From: Streptomyces sp. NBC_00536
GTDB lineage: Bacteria; Actinomycetota; Actinomycetes; Streptomycetales; Streptomycetaceae
Assembly: GCF_036346295.1 (NCBI RefSeq)
Contig: NZ_CP107819.1
Span: 8,494,001 to 8,558,000, forward strand
Direction of reading: 5' to 3'
Length of the DNA stretch: 64,000 nucleotides
Positions 3,893 through 39,322 of this stretch are shown piece by piece (the first letter of the stretch is position 1; each line of letters opens with the position of its first letter). Made by a program: the position numbers and the translations under genes. The notes under the pieces are model-generated. The model ran no database searches. It was not told where the DNA came from and saw only the letters and a list, made by a program, of their open reading frames with translations.

Positions 3893-4384
3893 TCACGAGG
3901 CGGCCCCGAGAGGAACCTCAGCGATGTGAGTCCACGTGATGCGCGCGCCGTCGTGTCGCTCGGACACCAGCACTGCCTTCTCCGCGCGCAGGGTCACCGG
4001 TCCCGGTCCGTGATCGCTCAACCACACTTTCATTAGAGTGGGGTTGGCCTTAGCGGCCGAACTGGGGCCGTATGCGATCGACATGTGAGGGGCGTGCTGT
4101 TCGGGGATGAGCGGCCACCGCTTCGGGGCCACCGCCTCGAATGCCGCCGTGGCAATCTCCCAGAGGCGTCGCGATGGCGCGCCGGGCCGTCCCGCCATCT
4201 CCAGGGCGACTTTGCCCACGGACGGGCGGGAAAGCTCGATATCGAACGGAGGTACCGAGGCGGCCCCGGCCCGTAACAGCTCGATGACCCTGGCGATCTC
4301 CTCGGGCGTGTACTGATCGTCGGGGCCGGCGTGAAGGAGCGTAAGGTGCGCCCACGCTGCGGGTACCGGCTCCAGGCCGGGCAT
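3893..4384 (-). CDS. 2H phosphoesterase (2'-5' RNA ligase family), 5'-truncated or frameshifted
   Basis: The protein carries both catalytic tetrapeptide motifs of the 2H superfamily, HLTLLH (residues 13-18) and HMSIAY (100-105), about 85 residues apart as expected for the two lobes. Family members act on cyclic phosphodiester or 2'-5' linked nucleotides in the cytoplasm. The ATG at 4384 is poor: coding sequence (YRELVT before MPGLEP) continues upstream in frame, and actinobacterial relatives have some 40 further N-terminal residues. A second frame from 4485 (MPRPSNETADKAQ) looks like a start, so a frameshift near 4400 is likely. Core fold and motifs are intact, yet expression is doubtful. Confidence 0.6.
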   Translation of the reverse strand: MPGLEPVPAAWAHLTLLHAGPDDQYTPEEIARVIELLRAGAASVPPFDIELSRPSVGKVALEMAGRPGAPSRRLWEIATAAFEAVAPKRWPLIPEQHAPHMSIAYGPSSAAKANPTLMKVWLSDHGPGPVTLRAEKAVLVSERHDGARITWTHIAEVPLGAAS

Positions 4385-4721
4385 CGTGACGAGCTCCCGA
4401 TACGGTGTAGGCCCGCATTCGGAATGGCCCGCTCCGCTGCGGTGACCTGGGCTTTATCCGCCGTCTCATTCGAGGGACGCGGCATTTCTGTCTCACGATC
4501 TTGTCCTTTGTACTGTCCGGCTCACAGAGTGGTGTGCATCGTGAAGTTGCGTCACGGGTGTGGCGTGAGGGGCGGGCGAGATACTCGCGCTGGTCGTTGG
4601 CCGGTGTCCACGGTGAAGATCGTCTGGCTTGTTGGCTGGAAGCTTTGGCGGGTTCTGCTGCGCCGACCGCCGTGTCGCTCTTACGGTCCGTGACCGGGCC
4701 GGCACGCCGGGAGAGTAGGAG

Positions 4722-4840
4722 CTGGAACGGATCACAGCTCGCCGGAGTGAACTGGACGCGCTCACCGAGGAGCTGGCCAAGCAGCTCAGCGAAATCCAGG
4801 CCGAGCGGGAGGAACTGGTGGTCGCCGAGAGGGGGCCGGC
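4722..4840 (+). pseudogene. Coiled-coil fragment of an IS-associated ORF
   Basis: A frame reads LERITARRSELDALTEELAK followed by heptad-rich QLSEIQAEREELVVAER, a strongly charged coiled coil of the kind that starts small accessory ORFs of some Streptomyces insertion sequences. It runs directly into the IS5-type remnant downstream in a changed frame. Too little remains to name a family. Confidence 0.3.
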
Positions 4841-4869
4841 TGGTATACGTCTCCGCGGTCAGACCCGGG

Positions 4870-5200
4870 CGGACCTCGGAGATCACCGCCTGCCGTCACG
4901 ACAAGCTCACGCAGAAGTTGCGGGCGGCCGGCCTCGGAGCGATCGCCGACCTGGGATTCGTCGGACTTGGCGACAGCGGCCCGGCATCGACCCGGCGGTG
5001 AACATAGGCTACAAGGCCGCCCGGAACCGGCCTCTGGCGCGAGGGCAGAAGCTGTCCAACAAGGCATTGGCGGCCGTCCGGGCACCGGTCGGGCACGGGG
5101 TTGCCCACCTGAAGAACTGGCACGTCCCCGGCAAGTGTGCACCGACCCGACGTGGGCGACCGTGCTGGCGAGGGCCGTGCTGGTCACCGGACTCGCAACC
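4870..5200 (+). pseudogene. Remnant of an IS5-family DDE transposase
   Basis: Pieces of a transposase C-terminal half appear in successive frames: RHDKLTQKLRAAGLGAIADL, then IGYKAARNRPLARGQKLSNK and VRAPVGHGVAHLKNWHV, then DPTWATVLARAVLV. This is the order seen in IS5-type DDE transposases, where the catalytic Glu sits in 'aPvEHgfAhLKnWr'. Here that Glu is Gly (PVGHG), and at least two frameshifts are present. It is inactive. Confidence 0.6.
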
Positions 5201-5530
5201 AAGGAGGGAACGCCTGCGTTGCAGCCTCTGGAGCAAGGTCAGGAGTCCGGGGCCGATGTGTGTAGCAGTCGCCTGCGGTCAGGAGTGCGTGGCGGGTACC
5301 ACCCAGCTCGGCCGCCGGACGTGCGTGCCGACCCAGAGCACCCAAACACATCGGGCTGTCGCAAGCGCGCGACGCCACCGTGGGTATGCACCGCCACCCC
5401 CGCTAGTGTCACGGAAAGCGACGGTTCGACTACACTTGGTATATGATTGGGCTCAGCGTCGCACTGATACCCGACCATGCGCGTAGGACAGTTTCGTTGT
5501 GTCGGCAGACTGTGGAGAGAGGGTGATGGG
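5201..5530. promoter_or_regulatory. Upstream region of the TfuA-YcaO gene set
   Basis: About 330 bases between an IS remnant and the first gene of the cluster. It holds no supported gene. AT-rich TATAT near 5440 is the only promoter-like element I see and would place a transcript start shortly before the GRDP-like gene. A 27-codon ORF (5443-5526) overlaps the next start but lacks a ribosome binding site. Confidence 0.3.
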
Positions 5531-6139
5531 ATGGGCACGGTCACGCCCTCGCGGGAGGACGTTGCCGCGGCGGTTGCCCTGGTGGACCAGGTTGACCTCA
5601 AGCCGATCAACCGCAAGCTGCAGGATGACGACCCGGAAACATGGACCGTGGAGGCCCTCGCCGAGGCCGAGCAGAGGTACCGCCGGTTCCTGGTGCTGAA
5701 CCTGCTGCACCCGCACACCACGCTCTCCGTCGACCACGCGCTCGACGAATACTGGCACCAGCACATCCTGGACACGCGCAAATACGCCGAGGACTGCCAG
5801 CTCCTCTTCGGTTACTTCCTTCACCACGACCCGTACTTCGGTCTCGACAAGGATGGCGACGAGTGGCTGGAGAACGTTGCGATGTTCTCGGCAACACAGG
5901 ACCTCTACGAGGAAGCATTCGGGGAGCCGTACTCGACGAAGAAGCGGCTCACCATCGACAAGGCGGTCGGCGGCGCCGGATCCACCGTCGATCCGGGGCG
6001 GGTTTACGCGTTTCCGCAGGCATGTAAAAGCGGGCAGCACTGCAACAAGATCATCAGTCCGGAAAGCTTCGACCCGGACATCCCGGACCTGCCGCGGAAG
6101 CCGATCACGCCCCTGTCGCTCGAGGAGCCGGGCGAGTAG
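5531..6139 (+). CDS. GRDP-like (glycine-rich domain-containing protein-like) protein
   Basis: A 202-aa protein; ATG 5531 is preferred to the in-frame 5477 start because GAGAGAGGG lies just upstream. The central motif DEYWHQHILDTRKYAEDC followed by FGYFLHHDPYFG is the hallmark of GRDP-like (DUF1399-type) proteins, whose conserved His, Asp and Cys suggest a metal site. The C-terminal tail is unusual: ACKSGQHCNK followed by a Pro/Asp-rich stretch. The stop is 29 bases before the next start, so it heads an operon with the TfuA-YcaO fusion. Its role is unknown. It may be a modifying or binding partner, or its Cys-containing tail might be a substrate, which is only a guess. Confidence 0.6.
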   Translation: MGTVTPSREDVAAAVALVDQVDLKPINRKLQDDDPETWTVEALAEAEQRYRRFLVLNLLHPHTTLSVDHALDEYWHQHILDTRKYAEDCQLLFGYFLHHDPYFGLDKDGDEWLENVAMFSATQDLYEEAFGEPYSTKKRLTIDKAVGGAGSTVDPGRVYAFPQACKSGQHCNKIISPESFDPDIPDLPRKPITPLSLEEPGE

Positions 6140-6154
6140 ACCGGCCACGAGCTT

Positions 6155-6171
6155 GGAAGGAAAAGACGCTG
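6155..6171 (+). promoter_or_regulatory. Ribosome binding site that points to a CTG start
   Basis: GGAAGGA (6155-6161) is followed after 7 bases by CTG (6169). The next possible start in frame, TTG at 6205, has no ribosome binding site and would remove the first strand (VIFLGPSLP) of the TfuA domain. Both facts favour CTG. Confidence 0.55.
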
Positions 6172-8868
6172 GACCGCCGACCTGTCATCTTCCTTGGTCC
6201 CTCGTTGCCCCGCTCGGTAGCCGAGCAGGTGCTCTCAGAGGCCGACTACCGACCGCCGATCCGGCGCGGTGACCTGGATGCTGTCGCGTCGGGGACGCTT
6301 GTCGGCATCATCGACGGCGTTTTCGCCGACGTGCTGGCGATCAGCCCGGGCGAGATCCGTGCCGCCCTCTCCCGCGGGGTGGTGGTCTTGGGAGCGGCCA
6401 GCATGGGCGCGCTGCGCGCCACCGAGATCCCGGCGGTGGTAGGCATCGGCCGGATCCACGAGATGTACCGCGACGGGGTGATCGAACGGGACGACGAGGT
6501 CGCGGTCCTGTTCGAGGAGGAAACGTACCGGGCGCTGACCGTGCCGCTGGTCAATGTCCGGTACGCGGTCGGACGCCTGGTGCGCACCGGCACCCTCGCC
6601 CCTCGTGCCGGCGACGACATCGTGGCGGCGGCCCAGATGTTGCACTTTACGGACCGGACATACGAGGCGATCTTCGATGCTCCGTCGCTGGCCGCCAAGG
6701 CCGACGCGGGCGAGACCATCGCTTTGCTGCGGCGGTTCGACCTCAAGCGGGAAGACGCCCAGCTGCTGCTTGAGTATGTGGCCGCCGGGCAGGTGCCGCG
6801 GGCCGTCCGCGCCGAGACCGGCGAGCTCGTCGTCGCCGACGCGCCCACGTACGAGACGACGAGGGTACGGGACCGCGAAGCCGCCGACGCGCGCCTGCAC
6901 GTGTGGGAGAGCGGCGACGCAGTGTCCTTCGCCGACCTCGTGCAGTTCCTGAAGGTGACCGGGCGGTTCGACGCCATGGCCCGTGCTGCGCTGCTGCGTC
7001 TGACGGCGGGCGGCGGACGGCTGTCGCTGTCGCTTTCGCCGGACGCGCTGGCCGACGGCGCGCGGGATCCGGCGCAGTCGCTGCTCGATTTCGTGCGGCT
7101 GCAGTGGGGCTGGGAATCGCCCGAGGAGACGCACGTGACCATGGGCGACCTCGGGCTGGGGCTGGAGGACGTGTCGGACTCGCTGCACGCCGAAGTCACG
7201 GTGGCCCGGCTGGTGGCGGCGGTCGGCAGGCACCCCACGGCAGCGATGAGTAAGGCGCTGCGGACTGGTCTGTGGATTGACGACCTCGCGCTCAAGCGGG
7301 AGGTCCTCCGGCTGGGTGCGGTCCGCCACTTCGCCCGCCAGGCGGCCGCTCACGGCGAGCCGACCGCCGCGGAGTACGAAGAGGCGCGGCGGTGCATCAC
7401 CCGGTTGCGTCCGGCAGTGTCCTGGCCGCAGGCGAGCTCGGACCTCGGTGTGCTCGGCGTTTCCCGCACCGCGCTCGACGGTGCTGCACGAGAGCTCGCG
7501 CTGGCTCGGCGTGCGACCGCACCGCTGGTCGAGGTCTTGGAACGCCCGGAAGTCCCGGTCTGCCTGGCGGGGCCGTGGAGCGGTCTGGGGATCGGGCTGG
7601 TGCCGACCCCGAAGGCGAGTGGATCTCGCCGGTTCTCCTGCGACCCGGACAAAGTCCGCGTCATCGCTGACGATATTGCCCGGCAGTTGGGCGTGGTGCG
7701 CGTCGGCATGGTCGGAGAGCTGACCACGCTGGGCGTACATATCGCCCAGGCGTTCGCGCAGCGCAGCGGCTGGTCGGCGAGCTTCGCGAGCGGTAAGGCG
7801 GAGACGGTCGACGCCGCGAAGACGGGCGCCATCATGGAGGAAGCGGAGATTCAGGCGCAGGACGCTTTCCGTCCGCCGACGGCGCTACGGGCCTCTTATG
7901 AGCGCGCGGTGGCAGAAGGCGCCACAGTCGTGGCGCCGGACCAGCTGGGGCTGCCTTTCGACAGCCGGTGGACCTCTCAGGCTGAGCTGGAGTGGGCGGA
8001 GACGGTCGATTTGGTCAGCGGGCGGACGGTGCTGGTCCCGACCGCTGTCCTGGTCGGTGGCAGGCTGCCGGGGGACATCCTCTACTCGCCGCGGCTGGGA
8101 GGAAAGGTCTTTTCCTCCAATGGTCTGGGATCCGGCTTTAGCCTGGCGGAGGCGGCCACCCACGCGGTCGCCGAGTTGGTTGAGCGGCACGCCACCCGCC
8201 TCGCCGAGCTGGAGATCGACAACCCGGGCGGAGTCGGCTGCCGGGAGTTCCGGTTCCTTGACCTTGAGTCCCTGCCGGATGTTCCGCGCCGGATCGTGAC
8301 CAAGTACGAGCGTGGCGGGATGAGTGTGCGCCTGCTCGATATCACCTCCGAGGTTCGGGTGCCGACGTTCTACGCCCGGGTGTTCGAGGACCCCTTCTCG
8401 GGTGGGCGCAGCACGGTGTCCGACGGGTTCGCGACTCATCCGGACCCCGAGGTCGCAGCGACGATGGCGCTTCTGGAGGCCGCGCAAACCAAGGCCGGAT
8501 ACATCGCCGGAGGTCGGGAGGACTACTCGCTGCAGGCGCGGAGCCTCGGCCGCCACGAGCGGCCGCGAACCGGGCGTCTTGCCGCGCATGCGTTCTGGTT
8601 CGGCAACGACCGGCCGACCCAGGGCTTCGACGCAGTCACTGGGTACGTGGTGGACGACATTCTCGACGAGCTGCGATGGATGGTGGGCGCCATCGAGGCC
8701 GCTGGCTTTGGCCAGGTCCTCCTCGTGGACCTCACGGTCGACAAGATCGCACCGGCGTACGCCGTACGGGCCGTGATCCCTGGCTCGGAGACGACGAACC
8801 CGCTCTGCACCGGCGACCGCGGGCGCGTCACCTGTATCCGGGACCTGTTGCCCAGGGGGAGACGATGA
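6169..8868 (+). CDS. TfuA-YcaO fusion protein (peptide backbone modification)
   Basis: A protein of about 899 aa joining two domains usually encoded separately. Residues 1-200 are TfuA: VIFLGPSLP at the start, IIDGVF (47-52), GAASMGALRATEI (75-87) and MYRDGVIERDDEVAV. A helical linker region of unknown fold follows. The C-terminal part is YcaO: FSSNGLGSGFSLAEA near 648, AVAELVERH, and SDGFATHPDPE near 751 with AATMALLEAAQTK. YcaO enzymes activate peptide amides with ATP; with TfuA they are known to install thioamides. There is no C-terminal PxPxP motif. The stop overlaps the radical SAM start (ATGA), so the two are translationally coupled. Function as a thioamide or azoline synthetase is inferred. 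Confidence 0.85.
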   Translation: MDRRPVIFLGPSLPRSVAEQVLSEADYRPPIRRGDLDAVASGTLVGIIDGVFADVLAISPGEIRAALSRGVVVLGAASMGALRATEIPAVVGIGRIHEMYRDGVIERDDEVAVLFEEETYRALTVPLVNVRYAVGRLVRTGTLAPRAGDDIVAAAQMLHFTDRTYEAIFDAPSLAAKADAGETIALLRRFDLKREDAQLLLEYVAAGQVPRAVRAETGELVVADAPTYETTRVRDREAADARLHVWESGDAVSFADLVQFLKVTGRFDAMARAALLRLTAGGGRLSLSLSPDALADGARDPAQSLLDFVRLQWGWESPEETHVTMGDLGLGLEDVSDSLHAEVTVARLVAAVGRHPTAAMSKALRTGLWIDDLALKREVLRLGAVRHFARQAAAHGEPTAAEYEEARRCITRLRPAVSWPQASSDLGVLGVSRTALDGAARELALARRATAPLVEVLERPEVPVCLAGPWSGLGIGLVPTPKASGSRRFSCDPDKVRVIADDIARQLGVVRVGMVGELTTLGVHIAQAFAQRSGWSASFASGKAETVDAAKTGAIMEEAEIQAQDAFRPPTALRASYERAVAEGATVVAPDQLGLPFDSRWTSQAELEWAETVDLVSGRTVLVPTAVLVGGRLPGDILYSPRLGGKVFSSNGLGSGFSLAEAATHAVAELVERHATRLAELEIDNPGGVGCREFRFLDLESLPDVPRRIVTKYERGGMSVRLLDITSEVRVPTFYARVFEDPFSGGRSTVSDGFATHPDPEVAATMALLEAAQTKAGYIAGGREDYSLQARSLGRHERPRTGRLAAHAFWFGNDRPTQGFDAVTGYVVDDILDELRWMVGAIEAAGFGQVLLVDLTVDKIAPAYAVRAVIPGSETTNPLCTGDRGRVTCIRDLLPRGRR

Positions 8869-9863
8869 CCGCTCCGGCGGCGGTGGTCTGGGACATGACC
8901 TACGCATGCCCGCTGCGCTGCGAGCACTGTTACTCCGAGTCCGGCCGTCGCCCCTCGCGACAGTTGAGCTGGCCCGACCTCGCCCGGGTGGTCGACGCCC
9001 TGGTCGAACTGAACCCGCGCACCGTAGTGCTGTCGGGCGGTGAGCCGCTGGTGGTGCCGGAGATCTTCCAAGTGGCTGAGCGGCTGCGGAGCGGCGGCGT
9101 GTCGGTTCATCTGTACACGTCCGGCTGGCATCTCCCCGACCGGAGCGTGGCCGCGGTTGTGGAGGTGATGTCCAACGTCACAGTCAGCATCGACGGGGCG
9201 ATCGCCGCGACGCACGACCGGCTGCGCGGCCGGGCCGGATCGTTCGACCGTGCCGTGGACGCCGCCGCGCGCCTGTCCGCCGCGGCGGCCGGGCAGCCTG
9301 AGCTGGCGGTCGGCGTGGACTACACGGTGACGCGGTCGAACTTCGACGAGATGCCGGATTTCTGCCGCCTGGTGGCCATGCGACTTCCGTCCCTGGACTA
9401 CGTGTTCTTCGGCGCGGCGATGCCGATCGGACTCGCCAGCCGCGAAGGCTTCGTCGCCCATGAGATCGTGACATCCCGGCAACTCATGCTGCTCCGGGAT
9501 GAGTCCTACGCAGACATGCTGCGAGCCCACGGACCGGCCGACCTCGTGGTGAGCGACAACGAGATGTTCCAGATGCGCCCAGACCGGCTCGTCCGGGGCG
9601 AGATCCCGGCGATGCAGGTGGAGCCCGACGGGCGGGTGCGGGCGATGCCGGTGTACGAGGGTACCGTGGGCAGCCTGTTGGACGAGCCCGGCACTACGCT
9701 GTGGCGGCGGGCGATGGCCCGCTGGACCGACCCGCGCGTCACTGGCCTGCTCGGGCCTGCACGGACGATGGAGGCATGGGCGGACGCCACCCGACAGCTC
9801 GACCTGATGTTCGGCGATGCGGACGACCAGCGGCGCATCGAGCGCCGACCAGCCTTCCCGTGA
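8865..9863 (+). CDS. Radical SAM enzyme
   Basis: A 332-aa protein with the 4Fe-4S cluster motif CPLRCEHC (Cys 15, 19 and 22, CxxxCxxC) and the SAM-binding SGGEPL (57-62). The C-terminal third (QVEPDGRVRAMPVYEGTVGS, then RRIERRPAFP) resembles PqqE-like peptide-modifying enzymes, but I see no cluster of SPASM cysteines. It therefore probably carries only the radical SAM cluster. The start overlaps the YcaO stop (ATGA) and its stop overlaps the next start (GTGA). Such enzymes make C-C, C-S or epimerised products on ribosomal peptides. The exact reaction here cannot be read from sequence. Confidence 0.85.
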   Translation: MTAPAAVVWDMTYACPLRCEHCYSESGRRPSRQLSWPDLARVVDALVELNPRTVVLSGGEPLVVPEIFQVAERLRSGGVSVHLYTSGWHLPDRSVAAVVEVMSNVTVSIDGAIAATHDRLRGRAGSFDRAVDAAARLSAAAAGQPELAVGVDYTVTRSNFDEMPDFCRLVAMRLPSLDYVFFGAAMPIGLASREGFVAHEIVTSRQLMLLRDESYADMLRAHGPADLVVSDNEMFQMRPDRLVRGEIPAMQVEPDGRVRAMPVYEGTVGSLLDEPGTTLWRRAMARWTDPRVTGLLGPARTMEAWADATRQLDLMFGDADDQRRIERRPAFP

Positions 9864-10876
9864 GCACTCCGCTGGTCATTTCGCCGCTGGCGAGGGTTCG
9901 CTGGGTGAGCGGGCGGCTGGAGATCTCGGCCGCTGGCCACGTCGTGACGCTATCCACCTCGGAAGCCGAAGTCCTCGCGTTGATGCACGCCTTCGCCCGA
10001 CCCAGCACCGCATCTGAGGTACGGGCGCAGTTCCCCCTGATCGACGTGGATCCGCTGGTCTCGCAACTACGGTCGGCCGCCGTCCTGGTGGCGCCCGCAC
10101 AGGTCGCCGCGATCGAGTCCGCACGGTGGGACGTCGACTCGTTCACGTTCCACCGCCGCTCCCGAGCAGTGGTCCGCAGCGGAGCACCGCCGGTGTCACC
10201 ACCTGTCGTACCGGCCCGGCCGGAGAGCGCGGTGTTGCGGCTCGAACGGCCCACGGAGCCGATGTCGCAGAACTTGCCGTGCCTCCTGAACGCCCGCAGG
10301 TCCCGGCGGTCGTGGCCGGACGGGCTCATGCACGATCTCGGCCGCCTCCTGTGGCTCACCGCCCGCAACCGTGCTGCTGGACCCGATGTGGTCTCCCGCC
10401 CGTACCCCTCCGGCGGCGCCGCCTACAGCCTCGAGCTATATCCCGTCGTCGCGCCGGACACGGTGGCTGGCGTGCCGGCTGGGATCTACCGGTACCTGCC
10501 GGACACGCACGCACTCGAACTCATCTCACCGGACGCGCACAAGCCGGTGCTCGCCAGGGCAGCGGCGGCTGCGGGTGCCGAGCGGGCACCCGTCGCGATC
10601 GTGGTCACCAGCCGCTTCGAGCGGGCGAGCAGTACGTACGGCGAACTCGCCTACAGCCTGGTACTCAAGGAAGTAGGCGGGCTGTTCCAGACGTTCTACC
10701 TGGTGGCCGAGTACCTGGGCCTAGCGATGTGCGCGCTCGGCGGCGGCTGCCCGGATCATCTGTTCGCCGAGGTGATCGGAGCGGACGACCTGATCGAGCC
10801 CGTGGTCGGAGAGCTGGTCGTCGGGCCGGCTAGCCCACCACGGGCGCGCCCTCCAGGTCGAACAACTCGCGACTGA
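9860..10876 (+). CDS. SagB-type nitroreductase-fold dehydrogenase
   Basis: A 338-aa protein starting at GTG (9860) in a GTGA overlap with the radical SAM gene. Residues 1-75 form a small helical, winged-helix-like domain (VVTLSTSEAEVLALMHAF). The flavin nitroreductase domain follows: LNARRSRRSWPDG, PYPSGGAAYSLELYPVV, and TFYLVAEYLGLAMCALGG. SagB/ThcOx enzymes oxidise azolines made by YcaO proteins to azoles using FMN. Its place directly after TfuA-YcaO and radical SAM genes supports a RiPP pathway. The last 47 bases overlap the convergent gene on the other strand. Confidence 0.8.
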   Translation: MSTPLVISPLARVRWVSGRLEISAAGHVVTLSTSEAEVLALMHAFARPSTASEVRAQFPLIDVDPLVSQLRSAAVLVAPAQVAAIESARWDVDSFTFHRRSRAVVRSGAPPVSPPVVPARPESAVLRLERPTEPMSQNLPCLLNARRSRRSWPDGLMHDLGRLLWLTARNRAAGPDVVSRPYPSGGAAYSLELYPVVAPDTVAGVPAGIYRYLPDTHALELISPDAHKPVLARAAAAAGAERAPVAIVVTSRFERASSTYGELAYSLVLKEVGGLFQTFYLVAEYLGLAMCALGGGCPDHLFAEVIGADDLIEPVVGELVVGPASPPRARPPGRTTRD

Positions 10877-11483
10877 CCTGGGTGGGGAAATGATCGTTGC
10901 TCGGCCGCCGCTCGAACGACTCCGCGTCGACTTCGAAGGACTCCTGGTCGAACTCGACCGAGAGGCCCCCCCTGTCGTCGAGGCGGTAGCGGTAGCGGCA
11001 GTCCAGCGCCTGCGGCTTGCGGCCGCCGCCAGGCGCCGGGAAGTCGCCGTATCCGACCTGGCGTTCAGTGACGAGCAAGGCGCCACCGTCAACCCGCATC
11101 TGGACCAGGAAGATGGTCCCCGCGAGCGGGTCGAAGTGTGTGTTCGTTGAGCTGATGTACCGGGCGAAGCCCAGGAGCCGGCCAGTGCTCAGGCGCTCGG
11201 TCATCTCATACCGGTACACCCGGACCGCGTCCAAGGTTCCAGCAGGCTCACCGGGGTGGTCGTTAGCGTCGAGGTCGAACCGGCGACCGCGCGTGATCAC
11301 CGTCAAGTCGAAGTCGAATCCGTTCGTACGTTGGACGAAGTTGCTGAAAAAGGTCTGGTCTGCGTATGTCGTCTCCACACGGCCCTCGTGGGTGCGCGTG
11401 CTGATCGGCTCGGAGGTCAGAGTTCTGCCAACGAGGTTCCGCCCGATGAACTCAACCACGTCCTTGGACGCCGCACTCTGCAT
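10830..11483 (-). CDS. Hypothetical beta-rich protein in the RiPP-like cluster
   Basis: A 217-aa protein; ATG 11483 is chosen over 11504 because GGAAGGGAG ends 5 bases before it. It starts MQSAASKDVVEFIGRNLVGR and continues with many alternating hydrophobic strands (YADQTFFSNF, FDFDLTVITRG, TIFLVQMRV, RYRYRLDD), suggesting a lipocalin-like barrel that could bind a small molecule or peptide. There is no signal peptide. It is convergent with the SagB-type gene (47-base 3' overlap) and lies 65 bases downstream of the 43-aa ORF on the same strand, likely in one transcript. I do not recognise the family. Confidence 0.7.
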   Translation of the reverse strand: MQSAASKDVVEFIGRNLVGRTLTSEPISTRTHEGRVETTYADQTFFSNFVQRTNGFDFDLTVITRGRRFDLDANDHPGEPAGTLDAVRVYRYEMTERLSTGRLLGFARYISSTNTHFDPLAGTIFLVQMRVDGGALLVTERQVGYGDFPAPGGGRKPQALDCRYRYRLDDRGGLSVEFDQESFEVDAESFERRPSNDHFPTQVSRELFDLEGAPVVG

Positions 11484-11548
11484 CGGACTCCCTTCCTGGG
11501 CCACGGGCTGTGTTCAAGAACTGTAGCCCGCGAGCATGTCGAAGCCCC

Positions 11549-11680
11549 TCAGGCTGAACGGGCCGTGTCGGACTCGGAAGCGCGAGCGAGGAGTTCGGAC
11601 GAAGCCCAGCCATACATTGCTGTGCGACGTGAGGGCGCACGCTCTGAAGTGAGGTCCGTCTTGTGGAGAGGTTCAGGCAT
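11549..11680 (-). CDS. 43-aa peptide, candidate RiPP precursor
   Basis: A short minus-strand ORF with an ideal start: GGAGGA, 6 bases, ATG (11680). The peptide begins MPEPLHKTDLTSERAPSRR and ends in TAMYGWASSELLARAS plus a Ser/Thr-rich tail (ESDTARSA). The charged N-terminal half and Ser/Thr/Gly/Trp-containing C-terminal half have the layout of a leader and core. It contains no Cys. It precedes the beta-rich gene in the same direction and sits within 700 bases of the TfuA-YcaO/SagB genes. Precursor function is inferred from size, start quality and neighbours. A small regulatory protein is possible. Confidence 0.45.
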   Translation of the reverse strand: MPEPLHKTDLTSERAPSRRTAMYGWASSELLARASESDTARSA

Positions 11681-12290
11681 GACAATTCCTCCGGATTAGT
11701 GTCTCGAATTCGTCCCCGCGCTCACATGCGTCGCTGGCAACGGCGGGGTGTGGAGCTGAGCGTTCACGCCCAAGGGCATCTCGGCCATCGAGACGTCACA
11801 GGCAAGGGGAAGGCCGGACGGGCGAACGCGTGTGAACCCCTGGTCAATGTCTCGTCATATCAACCCTGTAGATGGTCCGTACTCGACAGGGAGTGGCCCG
11901 TGCTGCGAGGCGCAGACGGCATCCGGTGCAAGCAACATCGGTTGTGGGACACCGTCGGTCACGGGACAGAGGGGGCGCCCACCCCGGCCGCATCTTCAGC
12001 GTGTGGAACACGGAAACCCTGTCGGGGTCCGGAATCGTCCGGTAAGTCGACCGTAAGGGAGGCCCAAGTCCCCGGCAGGAACAGGATGGTCCAAGAAGCG
12101 AATGCCGGTAGGCCGAAAGGCCAGGGGAAAACGAGAGGGCGGCCCTCTCCGCCCGCTCTCGCGTATAACCCGCCGGATACGGGCTCTCGTGGCCTGGCCC
12201 GAAAGGGCGCCCACGTGGACCAGGTGAGCCTTTGAAGCCCCAAAGCAAAGACACCGGAACCGAAGGACAAGTTGGACGCCGGAGGCGCGT

Positions 12291-14057
12291 ATGAGTACCA
12301 CAGCGGCAGCAGCCACTGCCCGTGCGCCCGAGGTGAACGGACCGGAGGGCGGGAAACTCGACTGGCACAGCATCGACTGGGCCACGTGTGAGGAGAACGT
12401 ACGGCAGCTGAGGCAGCGGATCTTCAAGGCATCGCAGGAAAAAGGCCACAAAAGGGTCCGTAACTTGCAGAAGCTCATGCTGCGCAGCCGCAGCAACACG
12501 CTTGCCAGCGTGAAGCGGGTGACACAGCAGAGCAGTGGCCGCAAGACCGCTGGAATCGACGGGGAACGAGCCCTCACCCCTGTGGCGAGGGCCCGGCTGG
12601 CGGACGATATCCATCGCTCGCCAGGTCCCCGGACGGCCCAGCCGGTCAAGCGCGTGTACATCCCCAAGGCCAACGGGAAGCAGCGCCCGCTCGGCATCCC
12701 GGTCATCCGTGACCGGGTGCTCCAGGCCCGCGTGAAAAACGCGCTGGAGCCCGAATGGGAGGCCCGGTTCGAGTCGAAATCCTACGGATTCAGGCCCGGA
12801 CGAAGCTGCCAGGACGCCATCGCAGCCATCCGGGTCACGGCCCGGGGACGGCTGGCCAAGCGCCGCTGGGCGCTGGATGCGGACCTGGAAGGGGCCTTCG
12901 ACCGCATCAGTCACGACCACCTGAACGCCATGATCGGGCAGTTCCCCGCCAGGGACCTGATCCGGCAATGGCTGCGGGCCGGCGTGATGGAACGCGGCCG
13001 ATGGACGCCGACCGAGGAGGGAACTCCCCAGGGCGGCGTCATCAGCCCCTTGCTGCTGAACATTGCCCTTCACGGGATGGAACAGGCCGCGGGATTCCGC
13101 CTCGACGGGCGGAAGGGGCACGAGAACAAGACTGTGCCCGGAACTCCCGTGTTGATCCGATATGCCGACGACTTCGTGGTCTTGTGCCGCAGTGAAGGAG
13201 AGGCATACCAGGTCAAAGAGAAGCTGATGGGCTGGCTGGAACCCAGAGGTCTTCGCTTCAATGAGGCAAAGACCCGAGTTGTCCACCTCGACGAGGGGTT
13301 CGACTTTCTGGGATTCACTGTGCAGCGGCACGGCGACAGTCTGACCATCAGGCCGAGCAGGGAAGCGTGCAACAGACTCCGGAAACGGCTCCGAGAGGAG
13401 ATGCTCCGACATCGGGGCACCAGCACCGTTGCCGTGCTGGTGAAGTTCTCCCCGATTGTGAGGGGTTGGACAGCCTATTACCGGGGTGCGGCGTGCAATC
13501 GGGCGTTCTGCTCGATGGATCACTATCTGTTCAAGCTCCTGTACAAGTGGGCGAAACGTGGCCACGAGAACCGCTCGGGGCTGTGGATCAAGAACCTCTA
13601 TTTCGGCAGGTTCAACAAGGCCCGACAGGACAACTGGGTTTTCGGCGACCGTCATTCGGGCGCCTATCTCCCGAAGTTCGCCTGGGTCCGACACGCCAGA
13701 TACATTCCGGTCAAGGGTGCTGCGTCGCCCGACGATCCGGCCCTCACGGGGTACTGGCGCGGCCGCCGCCGCCGGAAAACGCCACCGCCGATGGACAAGA
13801 CCAGCTTGTACCTGGCGGCCCGGCAAAGGGGCTTGTGCCCTCTTTGTCGACAGGCGCTCATCAGCGGAGCCGAATACGAGCCCGACAGTCCACGCGAGTG
13901 GATCGAGTGGTTCGCAGCGTCGAAGAAGATGCTGAACAAGCATCACTTCGTTTACCGCAGAGACGGCGGCACGGATCAACGAACCAACCTTCGCCTGGTA
14001 CACGCCGAGTGCCACCGCCAGCATCATGCGGGTGACAGCAAGCGGACCCCGGGGTAG
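12291..14057 (+). CDS. ltrA: Group II intron reverse transcriptase/maturase with HNH endonuclease
   Basis: A 588-aa intron-encoded protein from ATG 12291 (GGAGG five bases upstream). The RT fingers-palm domain includes YIPKANGKQRPLGIPVIRD, SYGFRPGRSCQDA, EGTPQGGVISPLL and the catalytic YADDF (291-295). A maturase domain X follows (LVKFSPIVRGWTAYYRG). The C-terminus carries a complete HNH endonuclease: CPLC near 516, HHFVYRRDGG, and LVHAECHRQHH. Such proteins splice their intron and insert it by retrohoming into DNA. All catalytic residues are present, so the intron may be mobile. Confidence 0.9.
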   Translation: MSTTAAAATARAPEVNGPEGGKLDWHSIDWATCEENVRQLRQRIFKASQEKGHKRVRNLQKLMLRSRSNTLASVKRVTQQSSGRKTAGIDGERALTPVARARLADDIHRSPGPRTAQPVKRVYIPKANGKQRPLGIPVIRDRVLQARVKNALEPEWEARFESKSYGFRPGRSCQDAIAAIRVTARGRLAKRRWALDADLEGAFDRISHDHLNAMIGQFPARDLIRQWLRAGVMERGRWTPTEEGTPQGGVISPLLLNIALHGMEQAAGFRLDGRKGHENKTVPGTPVLIRYADDFVVLCRSEGEAYQVKEKLMGWLEPRGLRFNEAKTRVVHLDEGFDFLGFTVQRHGDSLTIRPSREACNRLRKRLREEMLRHRGTSTVAVLVKFSPIVRGWTAYYRGAACNRAFCSMDHYLFKLLYKWAKRGHENRSGLWIKNLYFGRFNKARQDNWVFGDRHSGAYLPKFAWVRHARYIPVKGAASPDDPALTGYWRGRRRRKTPPPMDKTSLYLAARQRGLCPLCRQALISGAEYEPDSPREWIEWFAASKKMLNKHHFVYRRDGGTDQRTNLRLVHAECHRQHHAGDSKRTPG

Positions 14058-14088
14058 TCCGTCCGGGTGATGCCCTCGTGGCTTGCTT

Positions 14089-14122
14089 GAGCCGGATGCG
14101 TTGAAAGGCGCACGTCCGGTTC
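14089..14122 (+). ncRNA. Group II intron 1 domain V
   Basis: A 34-nt hairpin of the conserved domain V form: GAGCCGGATGCG pairs with CGCACGTCCGGTTC across GAAA, with the usual bulge. It is the catalytic core of the ribozyme. Confidence 0.75.
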
Positions 14123-14374
14123 TGAGGGGGCCGGGGCCCAGCGATGGGCTCCGGCTACCCGACCTCTCGAGCGTTTCCCCCTGTTTCCGCGTACCTCGCG
14201 CATAGATCGCGACCGGGATCAGCACTACTACGGGCGAACCATCAGACAGGAGTTCGTCTCACTGCCCTGTCCCTCGGGCCAGAAAAAGGCCACCGTCAAC
14301 GAGAATCGCCCCTGCTGTGAAGCCGATTCAGTCGATTGCCCACAGACGTCGCTCGGGTGCGAGATCGTCTAACC

Positions 14375-39164: not shown

Positions 39165-39198
39165 GAACAACCACCACGAAGCCCTCGGGGCTTGTGGA

Positions 39199-39233
39199 GA
39201 GCCGGGTGCGGTGCCAAGTCGCATGCCCGGTTC
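39199..39233 (+). ncRNA. Group II intron 2 domain V
   Basis: Hairpin GAGCCGGGTGCG...CGCATGCCCGGTTC with the domain V shape, 35 bases after the reverse transcriptase stop. This is the ribozyme core. Confidence 0.7.
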
Positions 39234-39322
39234 GGGAAGCGGCTCCGGGGAAACGGGCCGGTCGAAAGACCGGAACCGCGCCCCGGGCCGACTTCACCAC
39301 CGACCGCACGTGCTGTGACTCA

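Follow-up and report, generated by a model that had tools for sequence, protein, structure and literature searches.

A Streptomyces gene cassette around a TfuA-YcaO fusion, with a GRDP-like protein as candidate peptide precursor

The cassette and its genes

The window, by which we mean the whole analysed stretch of 64,000 nucleotides from the 9.15-Mb genome of Streptomyces sp. NBC_00536, contains a compact block of five genes (Table 1). As evidenced by open reading frames and by Pfam and NCBIfam matches, the gene order given in the first-pass annotation is correct: genes for a GRDP-like protein, a TfuA-YcaO fusion, a radical SAM enzyme and a SagB-type dehydrogenase follow each other on the plus strand and face a convergent gene for a beta-rich protein. 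The start-stop overlaps described there are likewise present, ATGA at 8865-8868 between the fusion and radical SAM genes and GTGA at 9860-9863 between the radical SAM and SagB genes. A 43-residue ORF at 11549-11680 on the minus strand, which had been proposed as a further member, was rejected as a cassette gene, as it straddles the boundary of the conserved block and lacks an equivalent in Streptomyces luteolifulvus.

Table 1. Features of the cassette in window coordinates.
Feature	Position	Strand	Remarks
Upstream region of operon	5420..5530	+	about 72% identity to S. luteolifulvus; left edge of conserved block
GRDP-like protein, 202 aa, proposed precursor	5531..6139	+	helical domain and C-terminal tail; D72, W75, H76, Y85 and H99 kept
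Proposed core YAFPQACKSGQHCNKII, residues 159-175, with Cys165 and Cys171	6005..6055	+	identical in L023 except A164S; putative role
Proposed follower, residues 176-202	6056..6136	+	acidic and Pro-rich; predicted from sequence
TfuA-YcaO fusion, 899 aa, CTG start	6169..8868	+	TfuA about 1-210, middle region 211-500, YcaO about 500-890
Radical SAM enzyme	8865..9863	+	PF04055, 3.5e-17; C15-x3-C19-x2-C22
SagB-type dehydrogenase, GTG start	9860..10876	+	TIGR03605, 135.4 bits, cut-off 78.4
Orphan beta-rich protein, 217 aa, convergent	10830..11483	-	overlaps 3' end of SagB gene

A second copy of this 6.15-kb block is found in S. luteolifulvus HIT-DPA4 (locus L023), with 88% DNA identity. In a blastn comparison, window positions 5409-11579 gave the sole match at E ≤ 1e-8 within 22.7 kb of that locus, again at 88%, and the edges of the block are sharp, with windowed identity collapsing at about 5420 and 11565. 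Purifying selection acts on each of the five genes, the dN/dS ratios between the two copies being 0.14 for the fusion, 0.19 for the beta-rich protein, 0.20 for the radical SAM enzyme, 0.21 for the GRDP-like protein and 0.26 for the SagB-type dehydrogenase. The single intergenic gap measures 29 nt, the remaining non-genic DNA being the two block ends. The cassette was seen in only two genomes, both of Streptomyces, and the block from about 5420 to 11565 is apparently a self-contained, mobile cassette.

Relatives of the fusion were sought by scanning 84,980 species, represented by one genome each, with two peptide patterns derived from the alignment of two fusions, a procedure that yielded 25 relative-encoding loci and misses fusions lacking those patterns. 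In order-level genomes, a match at E ≤ 1e-30 was present in 9 of 391, a full-length fusion being limited to G000 and G374, and among 346 phylum-level genomes no fusion beyond the window's own was found at E ≤ 1e-60. The viral contigs searched held no match to the fusion or to the GRDP-like protein.

Both parts of the fusion are recognized by Pfam (YcaO, 8.4e-53; TfuA, 7.3e-33); the YcaO half aligns to MJ1094 (6pe3) and the TfuA half to the solved TfuA 6xp8. Relative to MJ1094 the YcaO motifs E669-x-x-E-R and E770-x-x-Q, which we take to be the ATP/Mg motifs, are intact. At the position where TfuA proteins begin, the fusion has no ATG, GTG or TTG codon. A CTG located 8 nt 3' of GGAAGG, at 6169, is kept in S. 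luteolifulvus, and the homologue from S. wedmorensis has a GTG start at the equivalent place; this CTG is very probably where translation of the fusion starts.

The radical SAM protein has four cysteines in total, three in its CxxxCxxC motif and one other, Cys167, and with this single extra residue it has no auxiliary cluster of the SPASM type, in contrast to the enzymes of SPASM radical SAM peptides such as sactipeptides and ranthipeptides. The SagB-type protein groups with azoline oxidases, e.g. CyaGox and McbC; by eye, its N-terminal 100 or so residues have the look of a winged-helix or RRE domain, a region with no Pfam match at E ≤ 0.01. For the beta-rich protein there was no match on plasmids at E ≤ 1 and nothing significant among PDB sequences (best E 1.3), and the search of 296 genomes of the class returned its own genome and one weak match (E 0.007). 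Its structure model has a mean pLDDT of 52.6, with a streptavidin-like fold as the best Foldseek match (E 0.035). In the five cassette proteins Pfam and NCBIfam identified no exporter or protease domains, and neither an E1-like C protein nor an ocin-ThiF domain. This last partner is a feature of linear azol(in)e peptides (TOMMs), with which the window shares YcaO and a SagB-type dehydrogenase scoring over the TIGR03605 cut-off.

The label GRDP-like, given to the first gene product from its sequence, stands in a weakened form: the match to Pfam PF07173 reaches 14.1 bits and thus stays below the cut-off of 22.7, and the assignment runs via intermediates such as the homologue from Azospirillum ramasamyi (L084), which scores 23.9 bits and aligns to the window protein. 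A profile search for solved relatives of the domain returned none, and the structure model (pLDDT 41) is too poor for use. A wHTH-like end is absent from the protein, which retains a Cys tail, YAFPQACKSGQHCNKIISPESFDPDIPDLPRKPITPLSLEEPGE; of this tail, the stretches CKSGQHCNKII and IPDLPRKPITPL recur unchanged in S. luteolifulvus.

Precursor search and related fusion clusters

With all five genes under purifying selection, a precursor gene that overlaps none of them finds no place in the block. The search behind this covered the ORFs in the gaps of the block. The L023 counterpart of the left block end holds no ORF of at least 12 residues. At the right edge, two short plus-strand ORFs, one at 11446-11526 and running antisense to where the beta gene starts, the other at 11536-11652, share their first residues with ORFs in L023; as the sequences diverge from there on, both were judged not to be conserved genes. 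Between the flanks, blastp of ORFs with at least 25 residues, 675 from the window and 198 from L023, gave no match at E ≤ 1e-3, a comparison that very short peptides could escape. As there is no non-overlapping precursor ORF in the block, the GRDP-like protein is the best candidate and its tail the sole good one for a linked precursor; the only other candidate in the block is the orphan beta-rich protein. The first-pass annotation had named homologous clusters without a conserved short peptide or tail as an outcome that would speak against peptide production; this did not occur, the GRDP tail being kept in the second copy. Just to the right of the cassette a reverse transcriptase/maturase gene (12291-14057) precedes the first of two group II intron matches in the window (14087-14163 and 39197-39297, both on the plus strand).

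Single-frame TfuA-YcaO fusions are encoded at six of 30 loci: L023, L024 (Streptomyces wedmorensis NRRL 3426), L025, L026, L037 and L078 (plasmid pSCAT of Streptantibioticus cattleyicolor), while at L027 a contig end cuts the gene and the fusion state cannot be judged. The window fusion has 41-43% identity to those of the five loci other than L023 and the same layout. All five clusters contain a short precursor ORF ending in NQS[FY]GM..A.TGC.SN.[GS]GP[SG]C. As a short conserved precursor thus accompanies the closest fusions that are not of the window type, the fusion is tied to peptides, and the RiPP-like character that had been proposed for the window is supported. The five clusters come from Actinobacteria and a Rhodobacteraceae genome, the one at L024 occupying 5060-13373 on the plus strand.

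A radical SAM gene was recognised in the clusters of L024, L026, L037 and L078; none was identified in L025, where the ORF calls have a gap. In L024 and L037 Pfam found PhyH, JmjC_2 (joined in L024 by a 2OG oxygenase domain) and radical SAM proteins, the radical SAM proteins having a SPASM match just under the cut-off. The genes of L025, L026 and L078 were recognised by eye or by sequence comparison, and no PhyH-like gene was seen downstream of the fusion in L026. The short precursor, the JmjC/2OG and PhyH-type oxygenases and the near-cut-off SPASM match thus distinguish these clusters from the window, whose own features are the GRDP-like, SagB-type and beta-rich proteins. None of the other 29 TfuA/YcaO loci, the five fused ones included, has a GRDP match.

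Fusions of this kind are already in print and the fusion itself is therefore not new: in the accessible text of two reports, a Burkholderia thailandensis cluster with fused tfuA-ycaO has two radical SAM genes and is drawn in a figure with a phytanoyl-CoA dioxygenase in its key (PMC8120280), and three fused proteins were set aside from an actinobacterial set of 229 TfuA proteins (PMC6511847). The L024-type clusters resemble the one from B. thailandensis, a likeness taken from the published description (PMC8120280) rather than from sequence comparison of the genes. New, as far as found, is the gene set of GRDP-like protein, fusion, radical SAM, SagB-type and orphan beta-rich proteins with no separate precursor. 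The first impression of a content unlike known RiPP classes accordingly holds in part: the full set was seen only in two Streptomyces, but a fusion with radical SAM genes has been published and unfused TfuA and YcaO occur together with SagB-like genes at L034 and L035.

Thioamidated RiPPs of the YcaO-TfuA type, among them thioviridamide-like peptides, thiovarsolins and thioamidated thiopeptides, combine a YcaO-TfuA pair with a small precursor, and we know of no GRDP-type precursor in this group. The window shares YcaO, TfuA and the peptide context with them, in that a YcaO with its ATP/Mg motifs is present and TfuA is present in fused form. As far as the accessible part of its description goes, the std cluster, another member of this group, also consists of a YcaO-TfuA pair with a small precursor (PMC13174530).

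GRDP-like proteins in other genomes

Matches to the GRDP-like protein at E ≤ 1e-3, nearly all of them weak, are present in 71 of 246 Streptomyces genomes. From the listed matches 34 neighbourhoods were taken, a non-random set with several closely related members. At least two cysteines are found in the last 40 residues of 24 of 33 Streptomyces homologues (L093 was left out, its GRDP gene having been missed in ORF calling), compared with 10.6% of a control set of 388 neighbouring ORFs, called in the same simple way; examples of Streptomyces GRDP tails are ...AAKCQHAPDCTIRPMPKP, ...DCSQCHANCSDSPNH and ...AECNPPACCGDGGGCGGG. At E ≤ 1e-3 the 34 neighbourhoods contain no relative of the TfuA, YcaO, radical SAM, SagB or beta proteins of the window, and none of the JmjC, radical SAM or PhyH proteins of L024. 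The commonest neighbour shared by these loci, present at 16 of them, looks by eye like a helix-turn-helix regulator. Small ORFs lie upstream of the GRDP gene at L130 (5336-5593, +), L097 (7569-7757, -) and L111 (7564-7839, -); the ORF is common to L097 and L111 and similar in L130, and it ends in CEC-x2-C in L097 and L130.

Outside Streptomyces the tails take other forms. Tandem repeats of AAYCAR- and AAWCSLEA-like units occur in Cupriavidus and Variovorax, and the repeat in Rhodococcus reads N(N/D)GNCGGQ...DACGG. Note that in Cupriavidus (L079, 2486-6549, +; L123, 2565-6579, +) and Variovorax (L085, 2470-6495, +) the tail-repeat GRDP gene directly follows that of a large GGDEF/EAL-type protein, identified by Pfam in L079, from an EAL annotation in L123 and by eye in L085. 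An E. coli plasmid operon encodes a GRDP protein with a Cys/Gly tail ending in ...NGSVCGCSGKGCGAGCSCNSR; next in the row come an ABC transporter (PF00664, PF00005) and a protein matching JmjC_2 (3.3e-21). Among 5,426 E. coli genomes, 36 have a match to this GRDP protein, always on plasmids. On plasmid pHUSEC41-3 (L136), one of the mobilizable 7.9-kb plasmids, the row lies at 4339-7540 on the minus strand and has the look of an operon for an uncharacterised microcin-like peptide. In one case among the E. coli plasmids the gene is apparently split. Agrobacterium CFBP6625 (L142, 5827-10172, +) has a tandem pair of GRDP proteins with near-identical domains and differing N-termini and tails (ACKGCSACSSCGGGGSCTVH and ACRGCSGCNSCSGQSCTVH), followed by an annotated glycosyltransferase (Pfam just under the cut-off) and an ABC transporter, an arrangement that may be described as glycocin-like. 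Rhizobium gallicum has a tail similar to those of Agrobacterium, again adjoined by an annotated glycosyltransferase. In A. ramasamyi (L084, 5893-12086, +) a GRDP protein with the Cys tail GCKSQNCP is accompanied by a methyltransferase, a TauD/TfdA dioxygenase and a protein that looks UvrA-like by eye and may serve self-resistance.

With a fixed domain and a varying Cys tail beside tailoring enzymes and transporters, the GRDP relatives look like RiPP precursors. We tentatively suggest, with slightly less than even confidence, that GRDP proteins with Cys tails form a broad RiPP precursor class that has gone unrecognised and whose leader is folded and possibly catalytic. Their cores would be changed by nearby enzymes: YcaO-TfuA, radical SAM and SagB in the window, JmjC with an ABC transporter on E. 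coli plasmids, and in Agrobacterium a glycosyltransferase, again with an ABC transporter. Of the types seen, that of the window alone would combine such a precursor with YcaO chemistry. By title and start of abstract, the open-access literature on GRDP-like, PF07173 or DUF1399 proteins holds nothing on RiPPs, UCP032817 and PIRSF032817 are absent from it, and the term 'glycine-rich domain-containing protein' never appears with RiPP; subscription papers and preprints are mostly outside this scope.

Not all members conform to this pattern. GRDP proteins that end in a wHTH-like region and lack a Cys tail stand beside a separate small protein at five loci, four from Streptomyces and one from another actinobacterium: L106 (6713-7879, -), L107 (5308-7546, +), L119 (6632-7822, -), L128 (4277-6579, +) and L133 (5806-6648, +). 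The small protein is Cys-rich in all but L107, where it has no Cys tail; those of L106, L119 and L128 have a GRLRI motif and a Cys-rich tail in common, and that of L133 is a short peptide with GRLTI and three cysteines. L107 and L128 additionally encode a third protein whose end is similarly wHTH-like. Fewer than two cysteines in the last 40 residues were counted in 12 of 25 tabulated GRDP proteins, the window and L023 included (the Rhizobium protein L125, with a Cys/Gly tail, is outside this table), and the domain therefore works without such a tail. Residues D72, W75, H76, Y85 and H99 are invariant in all 47 aligned GRDP domains, a pattern that points to an active site more than to a simple leader. 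Considering these residues and the tail-less proteins beside small partners, the domain may well function as an enzyme or as a partner, either in cis or in trans.

Proposed pathway and alternative explanations

We hold it to be fairly probable (about 0.6) that the block is a RiPP cassette with the GRDP-like protein as its precursor, the folded N-terminal domain serving as leader and the Cys-bearing tail as substrate of the enzymes. Weighing against it are the low number of cassette copies (two), the 12 tabulated GRDP proteins with fewer than two cysteines near their ends, the invariant residues of the domain, the 34 Streptomyces neighbourhoods devoid of relatives of the window's TfuA, YcaO, radical SAM or SagB at E ≤ 1e-3, the exporter or protease domains missing from the five proteins, and the two right-edge ORFs with starts shared by L023. 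In the proposed order, and in analogy to the respective enzyme families, the TfuA-YcaO fusion would use ATP to activate a backbone amide; sulfur delivered by TfuA would then give a thioamide, and/or YcaO would close Cys165 and Cys171 to thiazolines that SagB could oxidise to thiazoles. The radical SAM enzyme, having no auxiliary Fe-S domain, would make one further change, and as the last step the tail would be cut from the leader, to be exported. For the beta-rich protein a role in tailoring, binding or immunity could fit. As the proposed core has two cysteines, one or two thiazoles and possibly a thioamide are to be expected. In NHLP and Nif11 precursors a folded, enzyme-like domain likewise acts as leader to a Gly/Cys tail; the domain itself differs, that of the window being GRDP-like and related to PF07173.

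Alternatively, the GRDP-like protein might be a maturation enzyme or partner, perhaps metal-dependent, of a peptide substrate encoded elsewhere in the genome. The invariant D-x-x-W-H, Y and H residues, the tabulated proteins without a Cys tail and the tail-less GRDP-wHTH proteins next to separate small proteins would all be in line with such a role. The window protein, however, does not have the wHTH-like end and keeps its Cys tail, the block contains no non-overlapping ORF that is conserved over its length, and the flanks share none of at least 25 residues at E ≤ 1e-3. We regard this explanation as unlikely. We consider it quite improbable that the precursor is self-modifying, in the manner of fused borosins, where an enzyme is joined to its own core, with YcaO, radical SAM and SagB adding further changes to the product of the GRDP domain. 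The invariant residues and the occurrence of Cys tails in cis and of separate small proteins in trans fit this arrangement, but we know of no catalysis for PF07173, the profile search found no solved relative, and many members have no Cys tail. Both cis readings, the folded leader and the self-modifying precursor, place the substrate in the GRDP tail. That the enzymes act on a cellular protein, in the way the YcaO-TfuA of methanogens acts on McrA, with the GRDP-like protein as unrelated baggage, is very improbable: both fusion halves match McrA thioamidation models best in NCBIfam, yet they score below the cut-offs, the cassette is rare and sharply bounded, SagB and radical SAM genes belong to the operon, related fusions adjoin short precursors, and the GRDP gene is conserved with the rest.

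Judged by its genes, the cassette thus probably makes a small modified peptide by chemical remodelling of the Cys-bearing tail of the protein that its first gene encodes. If the GRDP-like protein is indeed the precursor, YcaO-TfuA chemistry would gain a precursor unlike those known to us, and this would be one way for a YcaO cassette to do without an evident precursor gene. In this case the widespread and little-studied family annotated as 'glycine-rich domain-containing protein' or 'UCP032817 domain-containing protein' would also provide a genome-mining handle for peptides. Precursor finders may miss GRDP genes, because these are about 135-350 codons long and not short ORFs.
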